This document shows, piece by piece, positions 6,243-29,589 of a DNA stretch of 64,000 bases. Where the stretch lies: contig NZ_CP026309.1 of assembly GCF_002906575.1 (NCBI RefSeq), forward strand, positions 2,790,001 through 2,854,000, read 5' to 3'. The DNA is from Salinigranum rubrum (lineage in GTDB: Archaea; Halobacteriota; Halobacteria; Halobacteriales; Haloferacaceae). A program made the translations under genes and the position numbers. Below the pieces are notes generated by a model. The model saw only the letters and a program-made list of their open reading frames with translations. It had not been told where the DNA came from and made no database searches. How positions within the stretch are numbered: position 1 is the first letter of the stretch; each line of letters starts with the position of its first letter.

Positions 6243-7286
6243 ATGACCGCATCGGAGCGCCGAGGGGTGCGAAACGGCGAGTGGAGCGACCCGTCCGAGA
6301 CGCGCGCCGTCGACCCCGAGTCGGCCGTCGTCGTCGACGGGGTCCGAAAGCGGTTCGGGAGCGGTCCCGAGGCGGTGACGGCCGTCGACGACGTCTCGTT
6401 CGCCATCGAGCGCGGGTCGGTCGTCGGGCTACTCGGACCGAACGGGGCCGGCAAGACCACGCTCATCAAGTGTATCCTCGGGATGGTGCTGCCCGACGAG
6501 GGGGCGGTCTCGATTCACGGCCACGACGTGTCCGCCGAGCCCCGGAGGGCGTACGCCCACGTCGACGCGATGCTCGAAGGCGCCCGCAACGACTACTGGC
6601 GGCTGACCGTCCGGGAGAACCTCCGGTACTTCGCGACCATCAGCGGCGTCGACCCCGACTCCGTGACCGCGCGACACGACCGCCTCCTCGACCAACTCGA
6701 CCTCGCCGACAAGGCCGATGAACCGGTGCGAAAGCTCTCCCGCGGGATGAAGCAGAAGGTGTCGCTCGCGAGCGTCCTCGCCACCGAGTCCGACGTCGTC
6801 TTCCTCGACGAGCCGACGCTCGGACTCGACGTCGAGAGTTCGCTCACCCTCCGCCGGGAACTCCGGCGCATCGTCGAGGCGCGCGACCTCACGGTCGTCC
6901 TCTCGAGCCACGACATGGACGTCATCGAGGACGTCTGCGACCGGGTGATCATCATGAGCGAGGGGCGGGTCGTCGCCGACGACACCGTGTCGAACCTCCT
7001 GCATCGGTCGGGAACGGGAACGTACCGCGTCACCAGTCCCGACCTCGACAGGGAAGTGATCGACGCGCTCGAAGCGCGGTTCGACGTGACCGACGTGGAG
7101 CGCCGCGACGGTCGAACCCACGTCGAGGTCCGGGTCGACAGCGACGGCTTCTACCGTCTCGTCGACACCCTCCGCGAGAACAGGGTGACCATCGACGGCG
7201 TGACGAGCGTCGCGCGCGATCTCGAATCGGTGTTCGTCGAACTCACCGACCGAACGAACGGGACGGAGAGGGGAGGGAGTCGGTGA
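6243..7286 (+). CDS. ABC-2 type exporter, ATP-binding subunit
   Basis: 347 residues from the ATG at 6243. The nucleotide-binding domain has Walker A GPNGAGKTT (about residue 65), the signature LSRGMKQK (about 165), Walker B VVFLDEP and the switch His in LSSHDMD. An additional C-terminal domain of about 90 residues after the ATPase core is typical of ABC-2 drug, polysaccharide or antibiotic exporters (CcmA/NatA-like). The stop overlaps the permease start in GTGA, so the two are translated together as one exporter. The substrate is not evident. Confidence 0.88.
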   Translation: MTASERRGVRNGEWSDPSETRAVDPESAVVVDGVRKRFGSGPEAVTAVDDVSFAIERGSVVGLLGPNGAGKTTLIKCILGMVLPDEGAVSIHGHDVSAEPRRAYAHVDAMLEGARNDYWRLTVRENLRYFATISGVDPDSVTARHDRLLDQLDLADKADEPVRKLSRGMKQKVSLASVLATESDVVFLDEPTLGLDVESSLTLRRELRRIVEARDLTVVLSSHDMDVIEDVCDRVIIMSEGRVVADDTVSNLLHRSGTGTYRVTSPDLDREVIDALEARFDVTDVERRDGRTHVEVRVDSDGFYRLVDTLRENRVTIDGVTSVARDLESVFVELTDRTNGTERGGSR

Positions 7287-8137
7287 CCCGAAGGCTGACC
7301 GCCGTCGACGGTGAGGTCGAAAGCGGGACGGGGCGTGAACGCGACGACACGGAGACGCCGCGTCCGGCGGGCTACCGTCACCTCGCGCGGGCCGTGTTCA
7401 CCCGCGAGTATCTCATCTTCGTCCGCTACCCCGCGAACGCCGTCGGCGGCATCGTCATCTCGCTGTTCTTCTTCGGCCTCCTCTTCTACGGGGGGCAGAT
7501 GGTCGCCGGACAGGCGCTCACCGACTCCCTCGAAGGCATCATCGTCGGCTACTTCCTGTGGACGCTCTCGGTGGGCGCGTACAGCGCCATCTCGAACGAC
7601 ATCGCGAGCGAGGTGCAGTGGGGCACCCTCGAACGGCACCTCATGACCCCGTTCGGCTTCGCCCCCGTCGTCCTCTTCAAGGGCGTCGCGAAGGTCGTCC
7701 GCACGTTCGTCACCTCCTCGATCATCCTCGCGGTCATGCTTCTCGTGAGCGGGACCGGCCTCCAGTTGAACCTCGTGACCGTGGTTCCCGTGGCGACGCT
7801 CGCCGTCGTCTCCGTTCTGGGTCTGGGCCTCGCCGCCGGTGGGGTCGCCATCCTCTACAAACGCATCGGCAACTGGCTCAACCTCCTGCAGTTCGGGTTC
7901 ATCGTGCTCATCTCGCTGCCGGCGTTCGACCTCGGCTGGGCCCGGTTCCTCCCGCTCGCGCAGGGGAGCGCGCTGCTCCAGCGGGCGATGGTCGACGGCA
8001 CCCGGCTGTGGGAGTTCTCGGTCGGCGACCTCGCCGTCCTCTGCGTCGTGGCGCTCGGCTACCTGCTCCTCGGCTACGTCGTATTTCAGGCCGCGACGCG
8101 TCGCGCGCGACGGCTCGGCGTGCTGGGCGACTACTGA
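7283..8137 (+). CDS. ABC-2 type exporter, permease subunit
   Basis: 284 residues starting at the GTG that overlaps the ATPase stop by four bases. About 30 hydrophilic N-terminal residues precede six hydrophobic helices, the usual ABC-2 permease topology. An elbow region, HLARAVFTREYLIFVRYPAN, resembles the start of family members. It forms the membrane channel for the ATPase encoded just upstream. The C-terminus is Arg-rich and cytoplasmic. No substrate-binding or processing gene lies beside it except the upstream lipoprotein, so the exported molecule cannot be assigned. Confidence 0.85.
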   Translation: MTRRLTAVDGEVESGTGRERDDTETPRPAGYRHLARAVFTREYLIFVRYPANAVGGIVISLFFFGLLFYGGQMVAGQALTDSLEGIIVGYFLWTLSVGAYSAISNDIASEVQWGTLERHLMTPFGFAPVVLFKGVAKVVRTFVTSSIILAVMLLVSGTGLQLNLVTVVPVATLAVVSVLGLGLAAGGVAILYKRIGNWLNLLQFGFIVLISLPAFDLGWARFLPLAQGSALLQRAMVDGTRLWEFSVGDLAVLCVVALGYLLLGYVVFQAATRRARRLGVLGDY

Positions 8138-8323
8138 TTTCGGGGTAGTCCACGGGTAATCGGTCGCCGTCGGCGAGTCGTACCCAGAAAATGTTGTTAA
8201 GGGTACATACACACCCACCACACGAAAGGTAACGTTAATCAGTAGCTCCCTCGTGAATGGAGACAACAGACGCGAACGGCCCTCCACTAATCGGATGTTT
8301 CGCATGCTTCATCTATCAAGACA

Positions 8324-10195
8324 ATGACAGGCCTCTGTGGAGTTCTCGGTGACCCGAACCACCGAATCGACTCGATGGCGGAAGACCTCCGGTGGACCGG
8401 TCACGAGGAGACGACGACGTACGCCGACGCCGAGGTGGCGCTTCACAGTGCCGTCCATCCGGGCCGCGACCGGACACAGCCGGCGCGGACGCCGGACGGG
8501 ACGCTCGTGTGGGTCTCGGGGCAGGTGTGGGGCTGTGAACGGGCAGACGGCTACCGACCACGGTGTCAGTCGTCCGAGACGGCTGCCGAGTTCTGCGCAC
8601 GCGAGTACGCGGAGCGCGGAATCGAGTTCGTCGCGGGACTGAACGGGACCTTCGCCGGAGTCGTTTACGACCGGAACCGACGAGAGGTCCACCTCATCAC
8701 CGACCGACTCGGAACGCACCCGGTCTACTACGCGCGTCCGACGCCGGAGACGGTCGTGTTCTCGACGCTGATCCAGTCGCTCCCGGCACATCCAGCCGTC
8801 GACACCGAGTTCGACGTGGAGTACCTCTCCGAGTACTTCGCCACTGGCTCCGTCGGTGGCGTGAAGACACCGTTGACCGGTATCGAGGAACTACCCCCGT
8901 CGTCGGTGACGACAGTCCGTCTCGAGCGCGGTGAGATCGAGACGGACCGCTACTGGCGACCGCGGTTCGACCCGCTCGACAGACCGTTCTCGTACTTCGT
9001 CGACGAGTTCGTCGACCGGTTCGAGCGCATCCTCGACGAGCGGTTCGACCCCGAGACGCGGTACGGTCTGCTCCTGAGCGGTGGGAGCGACTCACGAGCC
9101 ATCCTGGCGGGAGCGGACCCCGACGTCGACATCCGCACGTACCACGCGAAGAGTTGGCGGAGCCGCGAAACGCAGATCACAGAGCGGGTGGCCGACGTCG
9201 CGGACCGGGAGCTACACACACTCCACCGTGACCGGGACACGCACCGACGGCTGTTGGACGCGGTCCCTCGGATGATGAACTTCACCGGCCGGTTCTGTGA
9301 GGCACACGTGCACGAGTTCGGTGACCAACTCCGCGAGGAGGTCGACGTGCTCGTCTCGGGGCTGGCTGCTGACACGCTGTTTCGAGACCACGCCTTCCCG
9401 GTCCCGTCGCTCCGGATCGGTCCCCTCGGGAGCGTGGACCTCCCGATGGCACAGCGAACGGAGAGTCTCGAGGAGTTTCTCAAACGACGCGACGCACCCC
9501 TCCCGGCGTACCTGGACACGAACCAGCGGCTGTCGGACATCCTGCGGCGAAACGTCACGACGGAAGGGGGACTCTCTCACCACGGGGTCGAGTGTCGCTC
9601 CGTCGACGAACTCGTCTTCTTCGACGACTTCTATCCGTTCTCCAACAAGTCCGACTTCTTCTTCCACGCGCTGAACGGCATGATGCCGCACTGGAGTCCG
9701 TTCTTCGACAACCGCCTCGTCGACCTCGCCCTTCGCATCCCCCTGAAACACCGGTCGCGACGGAACCTGATCGACGCGACGACGACCGAACTCGACGAGC
9801 GCCTCGGCGCGATTCCACACGGAAACACCGGCGTCCCGGTCGAGCAGTCGTTCCCGGTCGAATACGTCTGGCGGTACGCCAACCAGTTCCGGTGGAAGTT
9901 CCTGACCGGCGACGACACGCCGGCGGAACACCTCTCACACGGGCCGTGGATCAGCACGGAGGGACTCACCCGCTCACACGAGTTCGTCCCGGAGCGACTC
10001 CGGGAACGAGCGGACCGCATCGACAGCCTCCCGTTTCTCGACCGCGACGGAGCGTGGCGAAGCTATCAGGCCCATCTCGAGGGGGCGGACAACAGTTTCG
10101 AGCTGTACACACTGCTGTCGTTCCTCGAGATGCCCGTCGTCGAACGGGTGGCGGGCGAGACGCGGGAGTCGGCGCGGCCGGTCGAAGGCCGATAA
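8324..10195 (+). CDS. Asparagine synthase-like glutamine amidotransferase
   Basis: 623 residues with the two-domain layout of AsnB-family enzymes: an N-terminal class II glutaminase-like domain and a C-terminal ATP-pyrophosphatase domain with PP-loop LLSGGSDSRAIL (about residue 248). True AsnB begins Met-Cys so that Cys becomes the N-terminal nucleophile. Here the start is MTGLCGVLGD, which places Cys at position 5, so glutaminase activity would need unusual processing or is absent. No alternative start would put Cys second. At the head of a glycan locus, it may amidate a sugar acid or peptide moiety rather than make free asparagine. That role is inferred from position only. Confidence 0.78.
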   Translation: MTGLCGVLGDPNHRIDSMAEDLRWTGHEETTTYADAEVALHSAVHPGRDRTQPARTPDGTLVWVSGQVWGCERADGYRPRCQSSETAAEFCAREYAERGIEFVAGLNGTFAGVVYDRNRREVHLITDRLGTHPVYYARPTPETVVFSTLIQSLPAHPAVDTEFDVEYLSEYFATGSVGGVKTPLTGIEELPPSSVTTVRLERGEIETDRYWRPRFDPLDRPFSYFVDEFVDRFERILDERFDPETRYGLLLSGGSDSRAILAGADPDVDIRTYHAKSWRSRETQITERVADVADRELHTLHRDRDTHRRLLDAVPRMMNFTGRFCEAHVHEFGDQLREEVDVLVSGLAADTLFRDHAFPVPSLRIGPLGSVDLPMAQRTESLEEFLKRRDAPLPAYLDTNQRLSDILRRNVTTEGGLSHHGVECRSVDELVFFDDFYPFSNKSDFFFHALNGMMPHWSPFFDNRLVDLALRIPLKHRSRRNLIDATTTELDERLGAIPHGNTGVPVEQSFPVEYVWRYANQFRWKFLTGDDTPAEHLSHGPWISTEGLTRSHEFVPERLRERADRIDSLPFLDRDGAWRSYQAHLEGADNSFELYTLLSFLEMPVVERVAGETRESARPVEGR

Positions 10196-22072: not shown

Positions 22073-23197
22073 ATGTCCACGTCGCTTCACGTCTCCTTCT
22101 TTATGGCGGCCCCCACCTACGGCGGTGCACAAAAGGTCACGATCACGATCGCGAACGGACTCGCCGAGCGGGGCCACGACGTCGACCTCGTCGTCGCGCG
22201 CCTCGAAGGCGAGTTCGTCTCCGACATCAGCGAGGAGGTCACCGTCGTCGATCTGGACGCGCCGTCCGTCCCGGGGATCGGGCTGTTCGCCGTAATCCCC
22301 CGTCTCCGGTCGTACCTCGCCGCCGAGAACCCCGCCGTGATGTTCGCCTGTCTCACGCACGCGAACGACGTCGCCGTCCTCGCCTCGCTCGGTTCGAACT
22401 CGTCGACGCACGTCGCCGTCACGGAACACCTCGCGTTCGGTGCCGACACCGAACTCAAAAAGCGGATCACGAGCGCGATGGCGAAGTATCTCTACCGGTA
22501 CGCGGACGACGTCGTCACCGTCTCCGCCGGCGTCGCCGAAAGCGTCGCCGCGAACACGCACATCGACATCGCGGACACGACCGTTCTCCACAACCCGATC
22601 CACGTCGAAGAGGTCAAGCGGGAGGCGGCGGCGTCGGTGGATCACGACTGGTTCGGCTCCGACGACGTCAGTCCGATCGTGAGCGTCGGACGCCTCGAAC
22701 CACAGAAGAGCCTGACGACGCTCCTCTCGGCGTTCGACCGGGTCCACGATGCGCGTCCCGACACTCGACTCGTCGTGGTCGGGAAGGGCTCCGAGCGCGA
22801 CCGACTCGTCGACCGGACCGAACGCCTCGGCCTCTCCGATGTCGTCGACTTCCCCGGTTTCGTCGACAACCCGTACGCGTACATGAACGGTGCCTCCGTC
22901 TTCGCCCTCTCCTCGGAGTTCGAGGGCCTCCCGACCGTGTTGATCGAAGCGCTCGCGTGCGGGTGTACGATCGTCTCGACGGACTGTCCCCACGGGCCAC
23001 GGGAGATCCTGGACGACGGGACGTACGGCCGTCTCACACCCGTCGGCGACCCCGACGCGCTGGCCGACGGCATCCTCCAGGCCCTCGACGACCCGACCCC
23101 GGTCGAGCGGTGTCTCGAGCGCGCGGACCACTTCTCGATGGCCAACTCGCTCGACCGCTACGAGACGTACATCAGGGACGTAAGCGACGCTCGGTGA
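22073..23197 (+). CDS. Glycosyltransferase family 4 (GT-B fold)
   Basis: 374 residues. The N-terminal acceptor domain begins LHVSFFMAAPTYGGAQKV, where the Gly-rich GGAQK loop is characteristic of GT4. The C-terminal donor domain has SVGRLEPQKSLTTLLSAF and the E-x7-E motif SEFEGLPTVLIEALACG followed by STDCPHGPREIL. This resembles GalNAc/Gal/GlcNAc transferases of O-antigen clusters. It lies 74 bases after the polytopic protein and is probably co-transcribed with it. Family call is firm; donor sugar unknown. Confidence 0.88.
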   Translation: MSTSLHVSFFMAAPTYGGAQKVTITIANGLAERGHDVDLVVARLEGEFVSDISEEVTVVDLDAPSVPGIGLFAVIPRLRSYLAAENPAVMFACLTHANDVAVLASLGSNSSTHVAVTEHLAFGADTELKKRITSAMAKYLYRYADDVVTVSAGVAESVAANTHIDIADTTVLHNPIHVEEVKREAAASVDHDWFGSDDVSPIVSVGRLEPQKSLTTLLSAFDRVHDARPDTRLVVVGKGSERDRLVDRTERLGLSDVVDFPGFVDNPYAYMNGASVFALSSEFEGLPTVLIEALACGCTIVSTDCPHGPREILDDGTYGRLTPVGDPDALADGILQALDDPTPVERCLERADHFSMANSLDRYETYIRDVSDAR

Positions 23198-23274: not shown

Positions 23275-24616
23275 CTATCTCGCGCCGACGTCCTCGGCGA
23301 CCGGGGGGTCGAGAGAGATCGGATCGCCTCGCGTGACCGTCCCGATTTCGACACCCTCGGTGACACCGACACCACCGGGGTTCCCGCTGTGGACGAGTTC
23401 CTCGATCCGCCCGGAGCAGTCGAGCAACTCGAGTGCAGCGCCGTGTGCGCTGTCGTGAATCGAGAGCCGACCCAGGTCGAAGTTGCCTCCCGCGCGGGCG
23501 TAGAACGACCCGTCCCGCTCGTTGTTCTGGTTCGCCCCGATGATGAGGATGTTGTCACCCCGGAAGTCGGCGGGGGAGGGGAAGTCGAACGCCGGCCACC
23601 CGGCGTTCTCGAACACCGTGTCGATACACCGAACCGTCCCGAGCCGCTGCCGACCCGGAATCATGTACCACGGCCGGCTCGAAATATTTCTGAACCGACA
23701 ATTCTCGACGGTCAGGTGGGTGTCCTTGTGGTGTTTGAAGCCGAAGCCGCTCTCCTCCACGACGGTGTTTCGGAACGTGATCTCGCCCTGCTGGCTGTCG
23801 ATCGCGGCGCCGGTGTTGTTGCGGAACAGGCAGTTCTCGACGAGGAGCGTCTCGTCGTTCGACGCGTCGAGCGTGACGTTGAGCCCGTGTCCGAGTCGGT
23901 CGTACCGTGCCGCGCCGTGTCCGTTTCCGATGAAGTCACAGGAGCGAATGACGGCGTTCGTGTTGAGGTTGCCCCCGTTGGTTCCCCAGTTGGAGATTCG
24001 ACAGCCCTCGAACGTGATCGGGTCGATCCCCGTTCCACGAATCTCGACGCCGAAGCCGTTCGGTGCGGACTGGTTCCGCCAGTTCCCGTCGATTTGGAGG
24101 TTCCGGAACGTCAGCCCCCCATGTCGACCGAGTCCATGGCCCGGAAACCGATGTAGTTGTTCTCGTGCCCGGACGCCATGTTGATCCGCGTGCGCAACGG
24201 GCCAGCCCCCTCGATTGTCAGGTTGGGGATGGACTCGGTGAACAGAATCGCGGCCTGCTCCTCGAACTGCTGCGAGGAGATCATGATATCGCCCGGCGGG
24301 AGGCGGAGTGTCCCCCGGGCTCGACCGCATCGAGCGCCTCCTCGAACGCCGGCGTGTCGTCGGTTTCTCCGTCTACTGCCGCTCCGAAGTCCGTGAGGTC
24401 GAGCGCGTCGGGGTCCGCCGTCGTGACGCCGGACCCGGACCCCGAGCCCGAGCCCGAGTCGGTCTCGGAGTTCGACCCAGACGGAGGATTCTGGGGTCCC
24501 GACCGCGTGGACGTGATCTCGTTGATACCGTATCCTACGGCGAGCGCGCTGGCGGCCGTTGCACTGATCGCAGCCAACGCCTTCCGACGAGGGATATCAG
24601 AGTCAGAGTCTAGCAT
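23275..24616 (-). pseudogene. Tat-exported right-handed beta-helix protein, two frameshifts
   Basis: Three consecutive reading frames together encode one protein. It begins at 24616 with a Tat signal (PRRKALAAISATAASALA), a Ser/Gly linker and the beta-helix entry motif LTDFGAAVDGETDDTPAF. The frame is lost at a run of five C (24312-24316, plus strand). The next segment (GTLRLPPGDIMISS to MDSVDMGG) is lost at six C (24115-24120), and the third continues as LTFRNLQIDGNW to the end. Adding one base in each run restores about 447 residues paralogous to the protein at 10477-11811. As written it is broken; sequencing error in homopolymers is likely. Intact, it would be a secreted glycan-binding or lyase-like protein. 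Confidence 0.75.
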
Positions 24617-24888: not shown

Positions 24889-25836
24889 CTACGACGACGC
24901 GACCGTCTGTTTGAGGCGTCGTGCGATCCGGTGTGTGTGTCTCCCACCGAGGGAAGCGAACAGGTAGAGGTACGACTCCGTCGACAGCGGGTAGAGACGG
25001 ATGGCCCGGAGGAGACATCGACGTGCATCGGCGTAGTAGCCGTTTCGGATCGCCGACGAGGCGAGGATCCGCGAGTGTTCGGCGACGAATCGCCGCTCGC
25101 AGACGGCTCCGTACTCGGCGGCGAGCGAGCGGTGCTTCTCGACGAGGAGCGGGTACGAGAGGTCCCGCTTCGTCTCGAAGTCGTCCGATATCTGGTCGCC
25201 GTGTTCCATGAAACGGGTAGTCAACAGCTCCGGGACGGGCTGGAACTCGCAGTGGCGCGAGAGTCGGATGAGCCACTCCCGGTCCTGCCAACTCTCGAAG
25301 CGCTCGTCGAGGAGCCCGGCGGGTTCGACGACGCTCGCTCGGACCATGAGCGCGGAGAACTCCGCGACCCGCTTGCCGGTGAGGAGCGCGTACGTCACGT
25401 CACCGCGGGTGTCGGGGGTTTTGGTGTTGAGTGGGTTCCCGTCCGCGTCGCAGTACTGGAGCCACGTGTAGACGACGCCCGTCTCCGGTCCGGCGGTCCG
25501 GAACGTCTCGACCTGCCGTTCGATCTTGTGGGGGTCCCACTGATCGTCGTCGTCGAGGAAGGCGACGAACTCGCCCTCGGCCGTCCGTATCCCGTTGTTT
25601 CGGGCCGCGTTCGCGCCCTTGTTCGTCTCGTGACGGACGTGCGTGAGGCGCTCTAGCGAGTCGAGGGGGACGTCCTCGAGAACGTCCGCGGCGGGTACCG
25701 ACGAGTGGTCGTCCACCACCACCAGTTCGATCCGGTCGTACGTCTGTTCGTTCACCGCCCGCGCGGCGGCGGTGAGATAGTCGGGGCGGTTGTACGTGGG
25801 CAGGACGACGCTGACCAGCGGCCCGGAGTCACTCAT
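24889..25836 (-). CDS. Glycosyltransferase family 2 (GT-A fold)
   Basis: 315 residues from the ATG at 25836 (MSDSGPLVSVVLPTYNRPDY); the upstream in-frame extension is Arg-rich and rejected. The GT-A core shows VVLPTYNRPDYLT, ELVVVDDHSS and the metal-binding FLDDDDQWDPHKIE, followed by an acceptor region with ESWQDREWLIRLSR. GT2 enzymes invert configuration and use nucleotide sugars in the cytoplasm. It likely adds one residue of the repeat unit. The gene stands between the broken beta-helix gene and the sulfatase-like pair. Confidence 0.88.
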   Translation of the reverse strand: MSDSGPLVSVVLPTYNRPDYLTAAARAVNEQTYDRIELVVVDDHSSVPAADVLEDVPLDSLERLTHVRHETNKGANAARNNGIRTAEGEFVAFLDDDDQWDPHKIERQVETFRTAGPETGVVYTWLQYCDADGNPLNTKTPDTRGDVTYALLTGKRVAEFSALMVRASVVEPAGLLDERFESWQDREWLIRLSRHCEFQPVPELLTTRFMEHGDQISDDFETKRDLSYPLLVEKHRSLAAEYGAVCERRFVAEHSRILASSAIRNGYYADARRCLLRAIRLYPLSTESYLYLFASLGGRHTHRIARRLKQTVASS

Positions 25837-26287
25837 TCTCGTCTCCCCGCAGCCGTGGACGGAGCTCCGACCGAACTGTCGGTCGGGCCTGTTTCGGCCC
25901 CGCCGACGCGCCAACAGTTGGGATGTCCCGCCGTCCGGCGTGCGTCGCCGTCGTCCGCGCTGCCGTGTGCTCTGAGGCCGGTCGCTGTCGTTTGTGCTTG
26001 GCGAATCATGGACGAACTGACGGTCCGCGTCACCGGACGGTAGACGACGGGGATATTAAAAAGGTCTGTCCGAGACGCGAGGACACGTCGGACGGAAGCC
26101 AAGCGACTCCGCCGCAGGGCGGTCACGACGGAGGGGAGGCGCTGAGACGACGCGTGCCGTCTCGAAACGAGCCGGCGTGGTCGGTTCGGCTGTTGTCGGA
26201 GCCGTCCCGAGACCGACCCCGGTGGGGTGTCTCGCGACCCGGTATAACCGTGGTAAACACTAACTACCCGTGTCAGAATACACAAGT
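25837..26287. other. Intergenic region
   Basis: 451 bases between divergent genes. It includes AT-rich GATATTAAAAAGG near 26050 and GGTATAACC at 26241-26249, the latter about 40 bases before the small RHH-like gene and a plausible promoter for it. No coding frame is supported. Confidence 0.45.
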
Positions 26288-26541
26288 ATGTCATCTGGGA
26301 GTGAGCAGGACTCCAGATATCCGGGGGAGAACGCACGTCGGTCGAACTTCCGAACACGCTGGTCTCCGACATCGACGGTCGTATCCGAGGTACGGCCTTC
26401 GAGTCGGCCGGCGAGTACATCACGTTCGTCCTCGAAGAGGTGCTACTCGAACTCGACGAGGCGTCGGAACCGAACGGGGAGACCCTCGACGAGGACGAGG
26501 TCGAAGAACGACTCCAGGCGCTCGGCTATCTGGACAAGTGA
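26288..26541 (+). pseudogene. Small RHH/CopG-like acidic protein, one frameshift
   Basis: An ATG at 26288 opens MSSGSEQDSRYPG, and a five-G run (26323-26327) then shifts the frame. Downstream, the other frame encodes TSVELPNTLVSDIDGRIRGT and EYITFVLEEVLLELDEA, ending ERLQALGYLDK. That frame has no start codon of its own after a stop at 26302-26304, so one missing G is the simple reading. The restored 84-residue protein resembles haloarchaeal ribbon-helix-helix-like proteins. Its tail ERLQALGYL is like the C-terminal tail of sulfatases. The stop is six bases before the sulfatase-like gene, so the two are surely co-transcribed. Confidence 0.6.
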
Positions 26542-26547
26542 GGAACG

Positions 26548-27801
26548 ATGGCCCGAAACATCGTCCTGATCACGGCAGACAGCATTCGTGCCGACCACTG
26601 CGGGTTTATGGGGTACGATGCGGAGACGACTCCGACGCTCGATCGGCTTGCGGACGACGGTCTCGTGTTCGAGTCGGCGATCGCTCCCGGACCGTCGACG
26701 ACGCAGTCGATGCCTGCGATCTTCACGGGCGACTACCCAGTCAAACGGGAGACGGACACGTCGTCGGAACTGAAGGCCAGACGCGAGTTCTTCCAGCCGC
26801 ACATGCGAGCCCGCCAGACCATCCCCGACCAACTCGCGCGTGACGGGTACGAAACGGGCGGGTTCACGCCGAACCCGTACACGTCGCGGTTCACCGGCTT
26901 CGACGAGGGGTTCGATCACTTCGAGGACTTCATCTCCGACTCGCGTTCGTCGTTCTACGAGTTCCTCTTCGAGAAGATCGACACGCTCGGCCCGGTCGTC
27001 TCGCTGGCTCGGATGGGGCTCAACGCGGTGAAACAAGAGGAGGTGTTCAAGCCGTGGGAGAACTACTACGGCGAGATCGAGGCGTGGCTCTCGGACGCCG
27101 AGGAGCCGTACTTCCTCTGGGTCCACCTGATGGATCCGCACTTCCCGTTCCTCGTCCCGTCGGAGTACCGGTCGCAGTCGTGGGTGCGGATGCACGAGGC
27201 GAACTGGAAGTTCTGGCAGGCGCTCCGTAACGGCACGTCGCTCGACGAGCGGACGACGGAGCGGCTGCTCACGGCGTACGACGACACGCTCCGGTACACG
27301 GACGCGTTCGTCGAACGGCTGTACGAGGACGTCGCCGACACCGACCCGATCGTCGTCTTTCACGGCGACCACGGCGAGGGGTTCGGAGAACACGGCTCGT
27401 ACAGCCACGGTTACGACCTCTACCAGGAGAACATCCACGTCCCGTTCCTCGTGTCCGGCGCCGAACGCGGGACGGTCGAGGCGCCCGTGACGCTCGAAGA
27501 GCTCCCGGGGATGATTCACGCCCTCCGTCAGGGTGATTCCCTCGACGCGTTCGGGAGACCGTACGTCGTCTCGCAGACGCTCGACGCCTCGAACGTCGCG
27601 GTCGTCGGGTCGTCGTGGAAATACATCGGCGATGCCGACTCGTCGGCGCTTTACTCGCTCGCGGCGAACGAGCACGAGACGATCGACAACGAGGACCTGC
27701 TCGACCTGTGCGAGGCTATCGTCCGGCAGCGGACGTCCCAGCAGGACACCCAGGGCGCGACCATCTCCGCGGTCGGGCGCGCCTCGATTCAGCCGTCCTG
27801 A
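26548..27801 (+). CDS. Sulfatase/alkaline-phosphatase superfamily enzyme
   Basis: 417 residues. The N-terminal metal site is NIVLITADSIRADHCG. The nucleophile region PGPSTTQSMPAIFTGDYP has Ser/Thr where sulfatases carry the Cys/Ser-x-Pro-x-Arg formylglycine motif, so sulfatase chemistry by formylglycine is unlikely. The second metal site is HGDHGEGFGEHG, followed by SHGYDLYQENIHVPF as in the family. It could be a phosphodiesterase or a phospho-group transferase acting on glycan or lipid. No signal peptide or membrane helix is visible. It is coupled to the small RHH-like gene six bases upstream. Confidence 0.8.
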   Translation: MARNIVLITADSIRADHCGFMGYDAETTPTLDRLADDGLVFESAIAPGPSTTQSMPAIFTGDYPVKRETDTSSELKARREFFQPHMRARQTIPDQLARDGYETGGFTPNPYTSRFTGFDEGFDHFEDFISDSRSSFYEFLFEKIDTLGPVVSLARMGLNAVKQEEVFKPWENYYGEIEAWLSDAEEPYFLWVHLMDPHFPFLVPSEYRSQSWVRMHEANWKFWQALRNGTSLDERTTERLLTAYDDTLRYTDAFVERLYEDVADTDPIVVFHGDHGEGFGEHGSYSHGYDLYQENIHVPFLVSGAERGTVEAPVTLEELPGMIHALRQGDSLDAFGRPYVVSQTLDASNVAVVGSSWKYIGDADSSALYSLAANEHETIDNEDLLDLCEAIVRQRTSQQDTQGATISAVGRASIQPS

Positions 27802-27826: not shown

Positions 27827-29589
27827 CTAATCGCCCATGCCGCCGTAGCCGAACTCGCCGTATCCCTGTGAACCTAAGGTGGCCTCAGGTGTGGGTGTCG
27901 GCGTCACGGTCGGCGTGGGGGTCGGCGTGACGACCGCCTGCGTGAACTCGATCCAGCCGAAGGTGAAGTCGCCGTCGAGCGACTCGATACGGAGGATCTG
28001 CAGCCCCTCGGCGCTGATATCGACGCCGCTGAGAGTGACGGACGTCCAGTTCTTCCATCCGTTCGTGTTCGGCACCTCGATGACGCCGAGCGCCTCACCG
28101 CCGAGCGTGACCCGAATCCGCTTTCCGCTCCGGGCCGACGAGACCCGCAGGGAGACGTCGTACGTCCCCGCGGTGACGTCGACGGTGTACTCGAGCCACT
28201 CGTCGCTCGCCGTCCATCCGATGCTGTAGTCGCCGGACGCCTCGCCGGACAGTTCGATGTCCGGACCGGCAGCGCGGTACTCCCCGAGTCGGTTCACGTC
28301 GTCGGTGTCGCTGAACGCGACGTCCTGTCCGCCCTCGTCGAAGTCTTCGGCCTGGATGCGTCCCGGAATCGCCCGTGCGGCCCCACCGTACGGCGTCTGT
28401 CCGGGTTCGACCTCGGGGACACGCGTGACGAACCGAACCCAGTTGAGGTTGAAGCCACTGCCGACAGCCTCCACGCGGAGGACGTGTTCCCCGTCCGTGC
28501 TGACCTCGAGATTCGGGAGCGTCACGGTTTGCCAGTTCTGTGACCCGCCCGTTTCGGGAACGTCGACGACGCCGAGTTCACTGCCGTCGAGGAGGACGCG
28601 CAGTTTGCGGTCGGTTCCCCACGAGGCGACGCGAGCCTCGAAGTCGTACGACCCCGCCGGAAGTGTGATCGTGTATTCGAGCCACTCCCCGTCTTTGATC
28701 CAGCCGACGTTGTAGCCGTTGTCGTCGGCCGTCCGCTCGATGTCGACCCCACCGTCCCTGTACGCGCCGCCCTGGTTCGAGTCAGTGGTGTCGTGATACG
28801 CGACGCCTTCGCCTCCCTCGTCGTACTGCTCTGCCTCGATGCGGTCCGTTCCGTCCCGCACCGTCCCGTAGTAGGGGGATTGCTCGGGTACCGGCGTGGG
28901 TGTCGGCGTCGCCGTCGGTTCGGGCGTCGGCGTCGCCGTCGGTTCGGGCGTCGGCGTCGCCGTCGGCTCAGGAGTGATGTTCTGTGCGTCCTGCACGGTG
29001 AGCGTGTACGGGCCGCTCCCGGACTGAACGTCGACGACCTGCACGAAATACGTCCCGGCTTTCGGCGCCGAATCGAGGTCGATCCGCTCTGGCTGACCCG
29101 TTCCGACGTATTTGAGGTTGAGGTAGTCGCCGTCGGAGTCGTACAGGATAAGCGCCGTGATGCCGTCGTCCTCGTCCCGGTCCAACTCGATAACGACCGT
29201 CTGGCCGGCGGCCGCCTCGAACGCGTACCAGTCGACCTCTGCCGGCGTCAGCGCCGCCGACACGGTCGACCCGAGACTGACCTTGTCCGCCGTCGCCTGT
29301 CGGTCGTTCGACTCGGACTCGCTCGTGGGGTGAGGTCCTGAACCGTGCCGGAGAACCCGCTCACGGTGAGCGACCCCTGCTGTTCGAAGACCTGATTGCC
29401 GCCGTAGCCGTAGATTCCCATCCGCGTCGCGTCCGGTACCGTGGCCCCGTTCGACTGGTTGGTTATCGCCGCTGCCGCCGCGACCGAGAGCCCGGCCATC
29501 TTCAGATACGACCGGCGACTCAACCGAACGGTATCGTCTTGGCTAGCTTGGTCTGGTTCTTCGGATTGTTCCCTTCTCATGAGGGTCAC
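27827..29589 (-). pseudogene. Tat-exported CBM6 surface protein, one frameshift
   Basis: The first frame (from 29589) has a Tat signal, SRRSYLKMAGLSVAAAAA, then MGIYGYGGNQ. It is interrupted at a four-G run (plus strand 29327-29330). The second frame resumes with PTSESESNDRQATADKVSL and runs to 27827. The restored protein has about 587 residues: Tat signal, a PPC-like domain (VDWYAFEAAAGQTVVIEL), a Thr/Pro repeat linker, two CBM6-type carbohydrate-binding modules (each with IEAEQYDEGG or IQAEDFDEGG, then GEWLEYT or DEWLEYT), a second Thr/Pro linker and a terminal GYGEFGYGGMGD. It probably binds the exported polysaccharide. The frameshift is likely artefactual. Confidence 0.75.
28902..28973 (-). 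repeat. Three tandem 24-base repeats encoding a Thr/Pro linker
   Basis: Units at 28902-28925, 28926-28949 and 28950-28973; the first two are identical and the third slightly diverged. Each encodes an eight-residue Pro-Glu-Pro-Thr-Ala-Thr-Pro-Thr type unit in the CBM6 protein. It is a linker, not a CRISPR array: there are no spacers. Confidence 0.8.

Follow-up and report, generated by a model that had tools for sequence, protein, structure and literature searches.

Across haloarchaea, we found that small proteins combining a putative ribbon-helix-helix (RHH)-like core with a C-terminal RLxxLGY tail are encoded close to a clade of enzymes of the alkaline phosphatase (AP)/sulfatase superfamily. 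Nearly all members of this clade lack such a tail themselves, and most related enzymes outside it bear the tail at their own C-terminus. We consider it moderately probable that the RHH protein is the dedicated partner of the enzyme and supplies in trans the tail that the relatives carry in cis.

The gene pair in the Salinigranum rubrum window

The window, i.e., the whole 64,000-nucleotide stretch of the Salinigranum rubrum genome analyzed here, contains one such pair amid glycosyltransferase and carbohydrate-binding protein genes. The relevant features are as follows:

22073..23197 (+): glycosyltransferase family 1/4 gene, context (PF00534, E 1.4e-37)
24892..25842 (-): glycosyltransferase family 2 gene, context (PF00535, E 8.9e-30)
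26288..26290 (+): ATG taken as the start of the small gene by the first-pass annotation, in a frame differing from that of the domain
26305..26541 (+): small RHH-LGY protein, about 75 residues, frame with stop (profile match 88.5 bits)
26341..26454 (+): RHH-like core, VELPN...EEVLLEL (alignment; low-pLDDT predicted helices; weak RHH-family matches)
26506..26538 (+): tail ERLQALGYLDK (R, L, L, G and Y invariant in 70/70 aligned family members, a set picked with a profile that includes the tail)
26548..27801 (+): tailless AP/sulfatase-superfamily enzyme P0001, 417 aa (PF00884; fold search)
26698..26700 (+): codon of Thr51, which takes the formylglycine position and is presumed to be the nucleophile (conserved in all 20 sequences aligned)
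27367..27372 (+): Asp274-His275 of the DHGE motif, presumed to bind metal (conserved in all 20 sequences aligned)
27827..29263 (-): context protein with CBM6/35 stretches (PF18099 matched over two stretches, E 7.3e-39)

The frame at 26305–26541 encodes ...ISGGERTSVELPNTLVSDIDGRIRGTAFESAGEYITFVLEEVLLELDEASEPNGETLDEDEVEERLQALGYLDK, and its stop codon (26539–26541) lies 6 nt before the ATG of the enzyme at 26548. The description given in the first-pass annotation—a small RHH-like protein with the tail ERLQALGYLDK, six bases upstream of the enzyme gene—is thus borne out in frame and coordinates, with the RHH part weak by sequence. The start proposed there is not: the ATG at 26288 is one nucleotide out of the domain frame, with the shift falling near a GGGGG run. 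That frame contains no ATG, GTG or TTG start between 26305 and 26541, i.e., the small gene is frame-broken as assembled. This may reflect either a sequencing error or real decay. None of the five relatives searched, three of them from the same genus, holds the locus at the DNA level; the three same-genus genomes also yielded no match to the enzyme at 1e-60. Two neighboring genes appear interrupted as well. A pectate-lyase/beta-helix-like gene at 23275–24616 (-) is spread over at least two frames, with PF13229 matching one piece and PF12708 weakly matching both, which suggests indel errors or gene decay near the small-gene locus. Likewise, at 27827–29589 (-), the CBM6/35 protein and an upstream piece (29248–29589), which by eye has a twin-arginine-like start, resemble a single gene broken near 29250.

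Sequence profiles point weakly to an RHH-like fold for the core of the small protein: among 22 family members, RHH_1 matched one, NikR models one or two, a ParD-type model (TIGR02606) one and CdrS one, with the family profile reaching a best E of about 0.4 against NikR chains. No Pfam or NCBIfam family was matched at its cut-off among the members scanned, and six plasmid records annotate the protein as "hypothetical protein". Its putative RHH-like core would liken it to CopG, NikR, ParD and CdrS proteins; it differs from them in adding an RLxxLGY tail tied to AP enzymes.

The enzyme is a member of the sulfatase superfamily, matching PF00884 at 5.4e-45 (154.4 bits versus a cut-off of 25). Its fold model is mostly confident, with 33 of 42 ten-residue blocks above 80 pLDDT, and its best match in a fold search is the arylsulfatase 9koq (E 3.8e-19). 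It has in common with the S1 sulfatases (PF00884, formylglycine type) the fold and the DHGE metal motif, D274-H275-G276-E277, which together with Thr51 is invariant across 20 aligned enzymes, the window's included. S1 sulfatases display the nucleophile motif C/S-x-P-x-R; in contrast, the corresponding region of the window enzyme, GPSTTQSMPAIFTG, has Thr51 where these have Cys or Ser, setting it apart from the formylglycine-dependent S1 sulfatases, from which it also differs in having a separate tail protein and no secretion signal noticeable by eye. The first-pass annotation had noted Ser/Thr in place of the formylglycine motif, and the residue is indeed a threonine. Since it is invariant across the 20 sequences, we rejected the notion that it is an oddity of the window enzyme: threonine is the rule for the family. 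A Thr nucleophile is found in phosphoethanolamine/phosphoglycerol transferases and in type I phosphodiesterases. These groups, namely EptA/MCR, LtaS and the type I phosphodiesterases (PF01663), belong to the AP superfamily as the window enzyme does, and PF01663-type enzymes are among the partners of RHH-LGY proteins in bacteria and at one haloarchaeal locus (L218, below). However, EptA/MCR models match the window enzyme partially, with scores far below the family cut-offs, and no membrane domain was noticed in it by eye.

Conservation of the pair across haloarchaea

We ran profiles of the small protein (22 sequences) and the enzyme (20 sequences) on 391 genomes of the class. With a threshold of E <= 1e-90, and four candidates per genome scored among the matches listed, at least 76 close enzymes were recovered in 58 of the 391 genomes, a total that may be an undercount. 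An RHH-LGY gene lies within 20 kb of 69 of these 76 enzymes (62 in an initial pass and seven on re-reading the other 14), and the pair is thus conserved in haloarchaea, the check that the first-pass annotation had proposed. Of the 62 initial pairs, 36 are less than 1 kb apart: 25 divergent, 10 on the same strand with the small gene just upstream, and one in another arrangement. Four further enzymes have a small gene 24–39 kb away, and another, from the genome G296, has none within 1 Mb; the remaining two of the 76 are the tailed enzymes discussed below.

Among the matches listed, 51 small genes score above 76 bits, and all have an enzyme within 20 kb except C1:2993135 of the window's own genome, where the adjacent enzyme is present but frame-broken. 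A match in G133 (72 bits) was added by hand since it stands beside an enzyme. Small genes scoring 75–76 bits in G147, G328 and G272 have no enzyme within 20 kb and belong to a nearly universal, unpaired haloarchaeal RHH protein (MTDYTTVSIPKDL...), which ends in QLxDLGYLE. No AP gene was found near this universal protein in the stretches read (L054 7466–7870 (-), L219, L220 and L221), indicating that the tail is not bound to such adjacency in all RHH-LGY proteins.

The window genome itself has three RHH-LGY genes beside AP-superfamily genes (C1:2816329, 2725020 and 2993135) and a fourth, C1:1865465, with no AP-superfamily gene in the 15 kb read. In its third pair (L052), the enzyme at 6891–9304 (-) is split over two frames, and the small gene at 9079–9342 (+) is intact and divergent from it.

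Sequence distances between small proteins correlate with those between their enzymes (0.66 over 61 pairs; none of 1000 shuffles was as high), as expected for co-inherited genes. Chance adjacency was ruled out by the genome census and the control ORFs described below.

Distribution of the tail in cis and in trans

The tail has the consensus E-V-x-x-R-L-x-x-L-G-Y-[L]. Among the 68 of the 76 close enzymes with readable C-termini, 66 have no [LM]GY tail, and for 61 of these a small gene lies no more than 20 kb away; the other five are the four with a small gene at 24–39 kb and the one from G296. The two tailed members, G324:3684902 (L127) and G221:466650 (L131), have their nearest small genes 75 kb and 180 kb away, with none closer than 70 kb. 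Thus, the enzymes with a small partner are those without a tail, as one would predict for a small protein that provides the missing element.

A tree was built from 138 enzymes, of which 47 are tailed and a few are near-copies; in it, 88 haloarchaeal rows cluster with a support of 85, rising to 99 once the tailed row L150 joins. This clade comprises 86 tailless rows and the two tailed ones, which group with L046 (support 95). Outside it, 45 of 50 rows are tailed, the untailed ones being L140 (partial), L162 and three Acidobacteriaceae enzymes. In the loci in hand, more distant homologs end in LGY in 10/17, 6/7 and 11/14 ORFs over three score bins; the exceptions listed comprise copies that are cut or frame-broken, two ending in MGY instead, and the three enzymes from Acidobacteriaceae, which have a small partner. 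Among viral contigs, we found three distant enzyme matches, two of them tailed and one (L140) partial. The IMG/VR contigs L139 and L141 code for sulfatase-like enzymes with the LGY tail in cis.

As a control, we considered acidic ORFs of at least 150 aa lying outside the enzyme profile. Only 12 of 528 end in LGY, namely five small proteins and seven PF01663-like AP enzymes (identified by a local profile, one also by Pfam). None of the other 516 does so, these being mechanical ORFs, some of which are not genes. The seven PF01663-type haloarchaeal enzymes thus carry the tail in cis, and four of them (L006, L032, L097 and L117) lie less than 10 kb from a sulfatase-type pair.

Certain loci combine both arrangements. 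In six genomes (L074, L070, L083, L085, L092 and L100), a tailed enzyme directly precedes the small gene and a tailless one follows it; hence, a tailed enzyme may neighbor the small gene where a tailless one is also present. In the haloarchaeal locus L218 (10527–12324), the gene of a tailless PF01663-type enzyme and an RHH-LGY gene stand tail to tail with 8 nt between them, and the three other AP enzymes there (one PF01663-type and two sulfatase-type) are all tailed. Overall, the LGY tail is carried by the enzyme itself or by a small protein encoded nearby, with exceptions: at L217 (G147) about 10 kb around a pair-type small gene yielded a single AP enzyme, which is tailed, and at L162 a tailless enzyme falls outside the clade.

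Comparable arrangements are seen in bacteria. In four loci (L029–L031 and L033; three labeled Acidobacteriaceae and one Candidatus Sulfotelmatobacter), the RHH-LGY gene is part of a same-strand run, which in L029 and L030 starts with a polysaccharide flippase-type protein (PF01943/PF13440), followed in L029 by glycosyltransferases. The three readable sulfatase-type enzymes at these loci are all tailless. A sample of 247 genomes of the phylum to which one of these loci belongs gave 38 RHH-LGY genes in 34 genomes among the matches listed. In the stretches read, an AP-superfamily enzyme is near 28 of the 38, some seen as cut ends only and recognized by motif and local profile. ATP sulfurylase (Sat) or APS kinase (CysC) is near 15; two have either or both of these without an AP enzyme, and the remaining eight have neither an AP enzyme nor Sat or CysC in the stretch covered. 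Pfam confirmed PF01663, PF01747 and PF01583 on bacterial examples, and the gene order small-Sat-PDE-CysC recurs (L199–L201). All 16 complete PF01663-type enzymes counted beside a bacterial small gene are without the LGY tail, as are two frames (L214 and L216) left out of this count as doubtful. Two probes found no Sat or CysC in the haloarchaeal loci. At L208 (1870–7651), two RHH-LGY genes flank two PF01663-like enzymes and an APS kinase, an arrangement suggestive of a separate partner for each enzyme. At another bacterial locus, L188, the RHH-LGY gene is bordered by a sigma-70 factor and a transporter gene (PF00528), and the wider stretch L205 revealed no AP enzyme.

A candidate two-part system and its alternatives

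These patterns lead us to propose that a clade of soluble-looking AP enzymes devoid of a C-terminal tail has its dedicated partner in the small protein. The RHH part would dimerize and hold or meet the enzyme, with the acidic linker presenting the tail, which would either dock, perhaps weakly, on the enzyme or recruit it to a third partner common to the tailed enzymes. Based on the gene context and a comparison with Agl30/Agl31 (below), the enzyme might use Thr51 to pass a sulfuryl (or phosphoryl) group on to a glycan or a precursor of one, a step that would belong to a surface-polysaccharide pathway.

Structure prediction bears on the docking step. The first-pass annotation had suggested that the two proteins could form one complex, in which the small protein either regulates its partner or provides a C-terminal element that the partner lacks, and had proposed co-folding them. 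We did so with a one-chain AlphaFold2 model (P0002), in which the window's in-frame TGA is read as W and the small protein is fused to the enzyme. The enzyme part is mostly confident, but the small part has a pLDDT of 41–64 and shows no confident docking; its helices at 13–24 and 31–50 have low pLDDT and the strand is unassigned. This negative result is weak because the three-residue linker limits where the tail can dock. Further, the alignment for the fusion covers only RHH cores and leaves the tail without depth, since MAFFT shifted tails onto the LxxxGY region of the enzyme or misplaced the enzymes. In an AlphaFold2 model of the cis-tailed L139 enzyme, built on a shallow alignment of 18 rows (mean 64.9), the tail likewise reaches only about 42–50. 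As neither model docks the tail, it may bind something other than the enzyme. Among solved structures, none of the best 60 of 106 chains covers the tail: their best-matching stretches stop short of position 432 in the cis-tail profile, which has 445 positions. Thus, of the suggested complex, the missing-element part agrees with tailless partnered enzymes and tailed relatives, while the predicted structures do not add an interface.

The main alternative, which we regard as unlikely, casts the small protein as a conventional RHH transcription factor autoregulating the polysaccharide/enzyme cluster, with the LGY tail serving its own oligomerization or ligand binding. Its weakly RHH-like core, the divergent orientation of 25 of the 36 close pairs, its position at the head of a same-strand gene run in some clusters (L020, L086 and L103) and the existence of the universal RHH-LGY relative away from AP genes are all consistent with this. 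However, the tail is the best conserved part of the protein (in a set picked with a tail-containing profile), and the strand residue in column 9 of the alignment varies (E24 T11 R9 D5 S5 A5 Q1). Moreover, the small gene lies inside rather than at the head of the run in L029 and L030, the tail is otherwise met only on AP enzymes, and the two tailed clade members have no small gene. Divergent intergenic alignments from five groups of two to four relatives, a weak test, revealed no shared inverted repeat by eye, only TATA-like blocks.

RHH antitoxins consist of an RHH domain, an acidic linker and a binding tail, and this build is matched by the small protein. The RHH end could accordingly be imagined to bind an operator while the tail restrains the enzyme, coupling activity to transcription. 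Beyond the shared build, the single ParD-type match among the 22 members and the divergent or closely spaced gene order speak for such a dual role; we nevertheless judge it improbable, as pure inhibition is hard to reconcile with a tail carried in cis by the relatives, the small protein is paired with a PF00884 enzyme from a family situated in biosynthetic sugar clusters, and the bacterial small-Sat-PDE-CysC order resembles a pathway operon. Finally, the small gene might simply hitchhike in polysaccharide islands, the likeness of the tails being that of a common helix-cap motif, LxxLGY. The enzyme does contain an LxxxGY-like stretch of its own, LARDGYET, onto which MAFFT moved the tails. Against this stand the initial pass, where 62 of 76 enzymes had a small gene at most 20 kb away and 36 of them at most 1 kb away, the absence of LGY ends from all 516 unrelated acidic ORFs, and the recurrence of the pairing, there with a different AP subfamily, in a bacterial phylum, which together make hitchhiking hardly credible.

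Returning to the dedicated-partner reading, the enzymes of the clade probably sulfate (or phosphorylate) glycans, judging by analogy and context. Glycan sulfation is our leading guess, with phosphoryl transfer as the alternative, because of the polysaccharide context, the bacterial Sat/CysC neighbors and the genetics of Agl30/Agl31: in Halobacterium salinarum, according to the genetic evidence of PMC11980604, N-glycans are sulfated by two proteins of the AP superfamily. These two, Agl30/VNG1056C and Agl31/VNG1057C, are likewise haloarchaeal AP/sulfatase-superfamily proteins encoded in a glycan gene cluster, and one of them is soluble, as the window enzyme looks to be; no small RHH partner is named for them in the passages of PMC11980604 considered.

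A broader reading, which we hold tentatively and with slightly less than even confidence, is that the RLxxLGY tail is an exchangeable functional element of a large class of AP group-transfer enzymes, likely sulfotransferases fed by Sat/CysC. Most of them would carry it in cis, and two lines or more, among them the sulfatase-type and the PF01663-type, would receive it in trans from an RHH scaffold. Our literature search, judged by title and abstract start and with most subscription journals outside its scope, found no description of such a pair. If the reading is true, it would define a two-subunit sulfation system common to Archaea and Bacteria and unnamed in the annotation libraries searched. 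In the plasmid records considered, the enzymes are mostly annotated as sulfatase or sulfatase-like, though their genes belong to biosynthetic sugar clusters. Should the LGY tail, in cis or in trans, be the sign of a shared group-transfer mechanism, biosynthetic transferases could be told from degradative sulfatases by sequence. The tail would then also account for a family of hypothetical proteins and present a case of an enzyme element that has moved to a small RHH scaffold.
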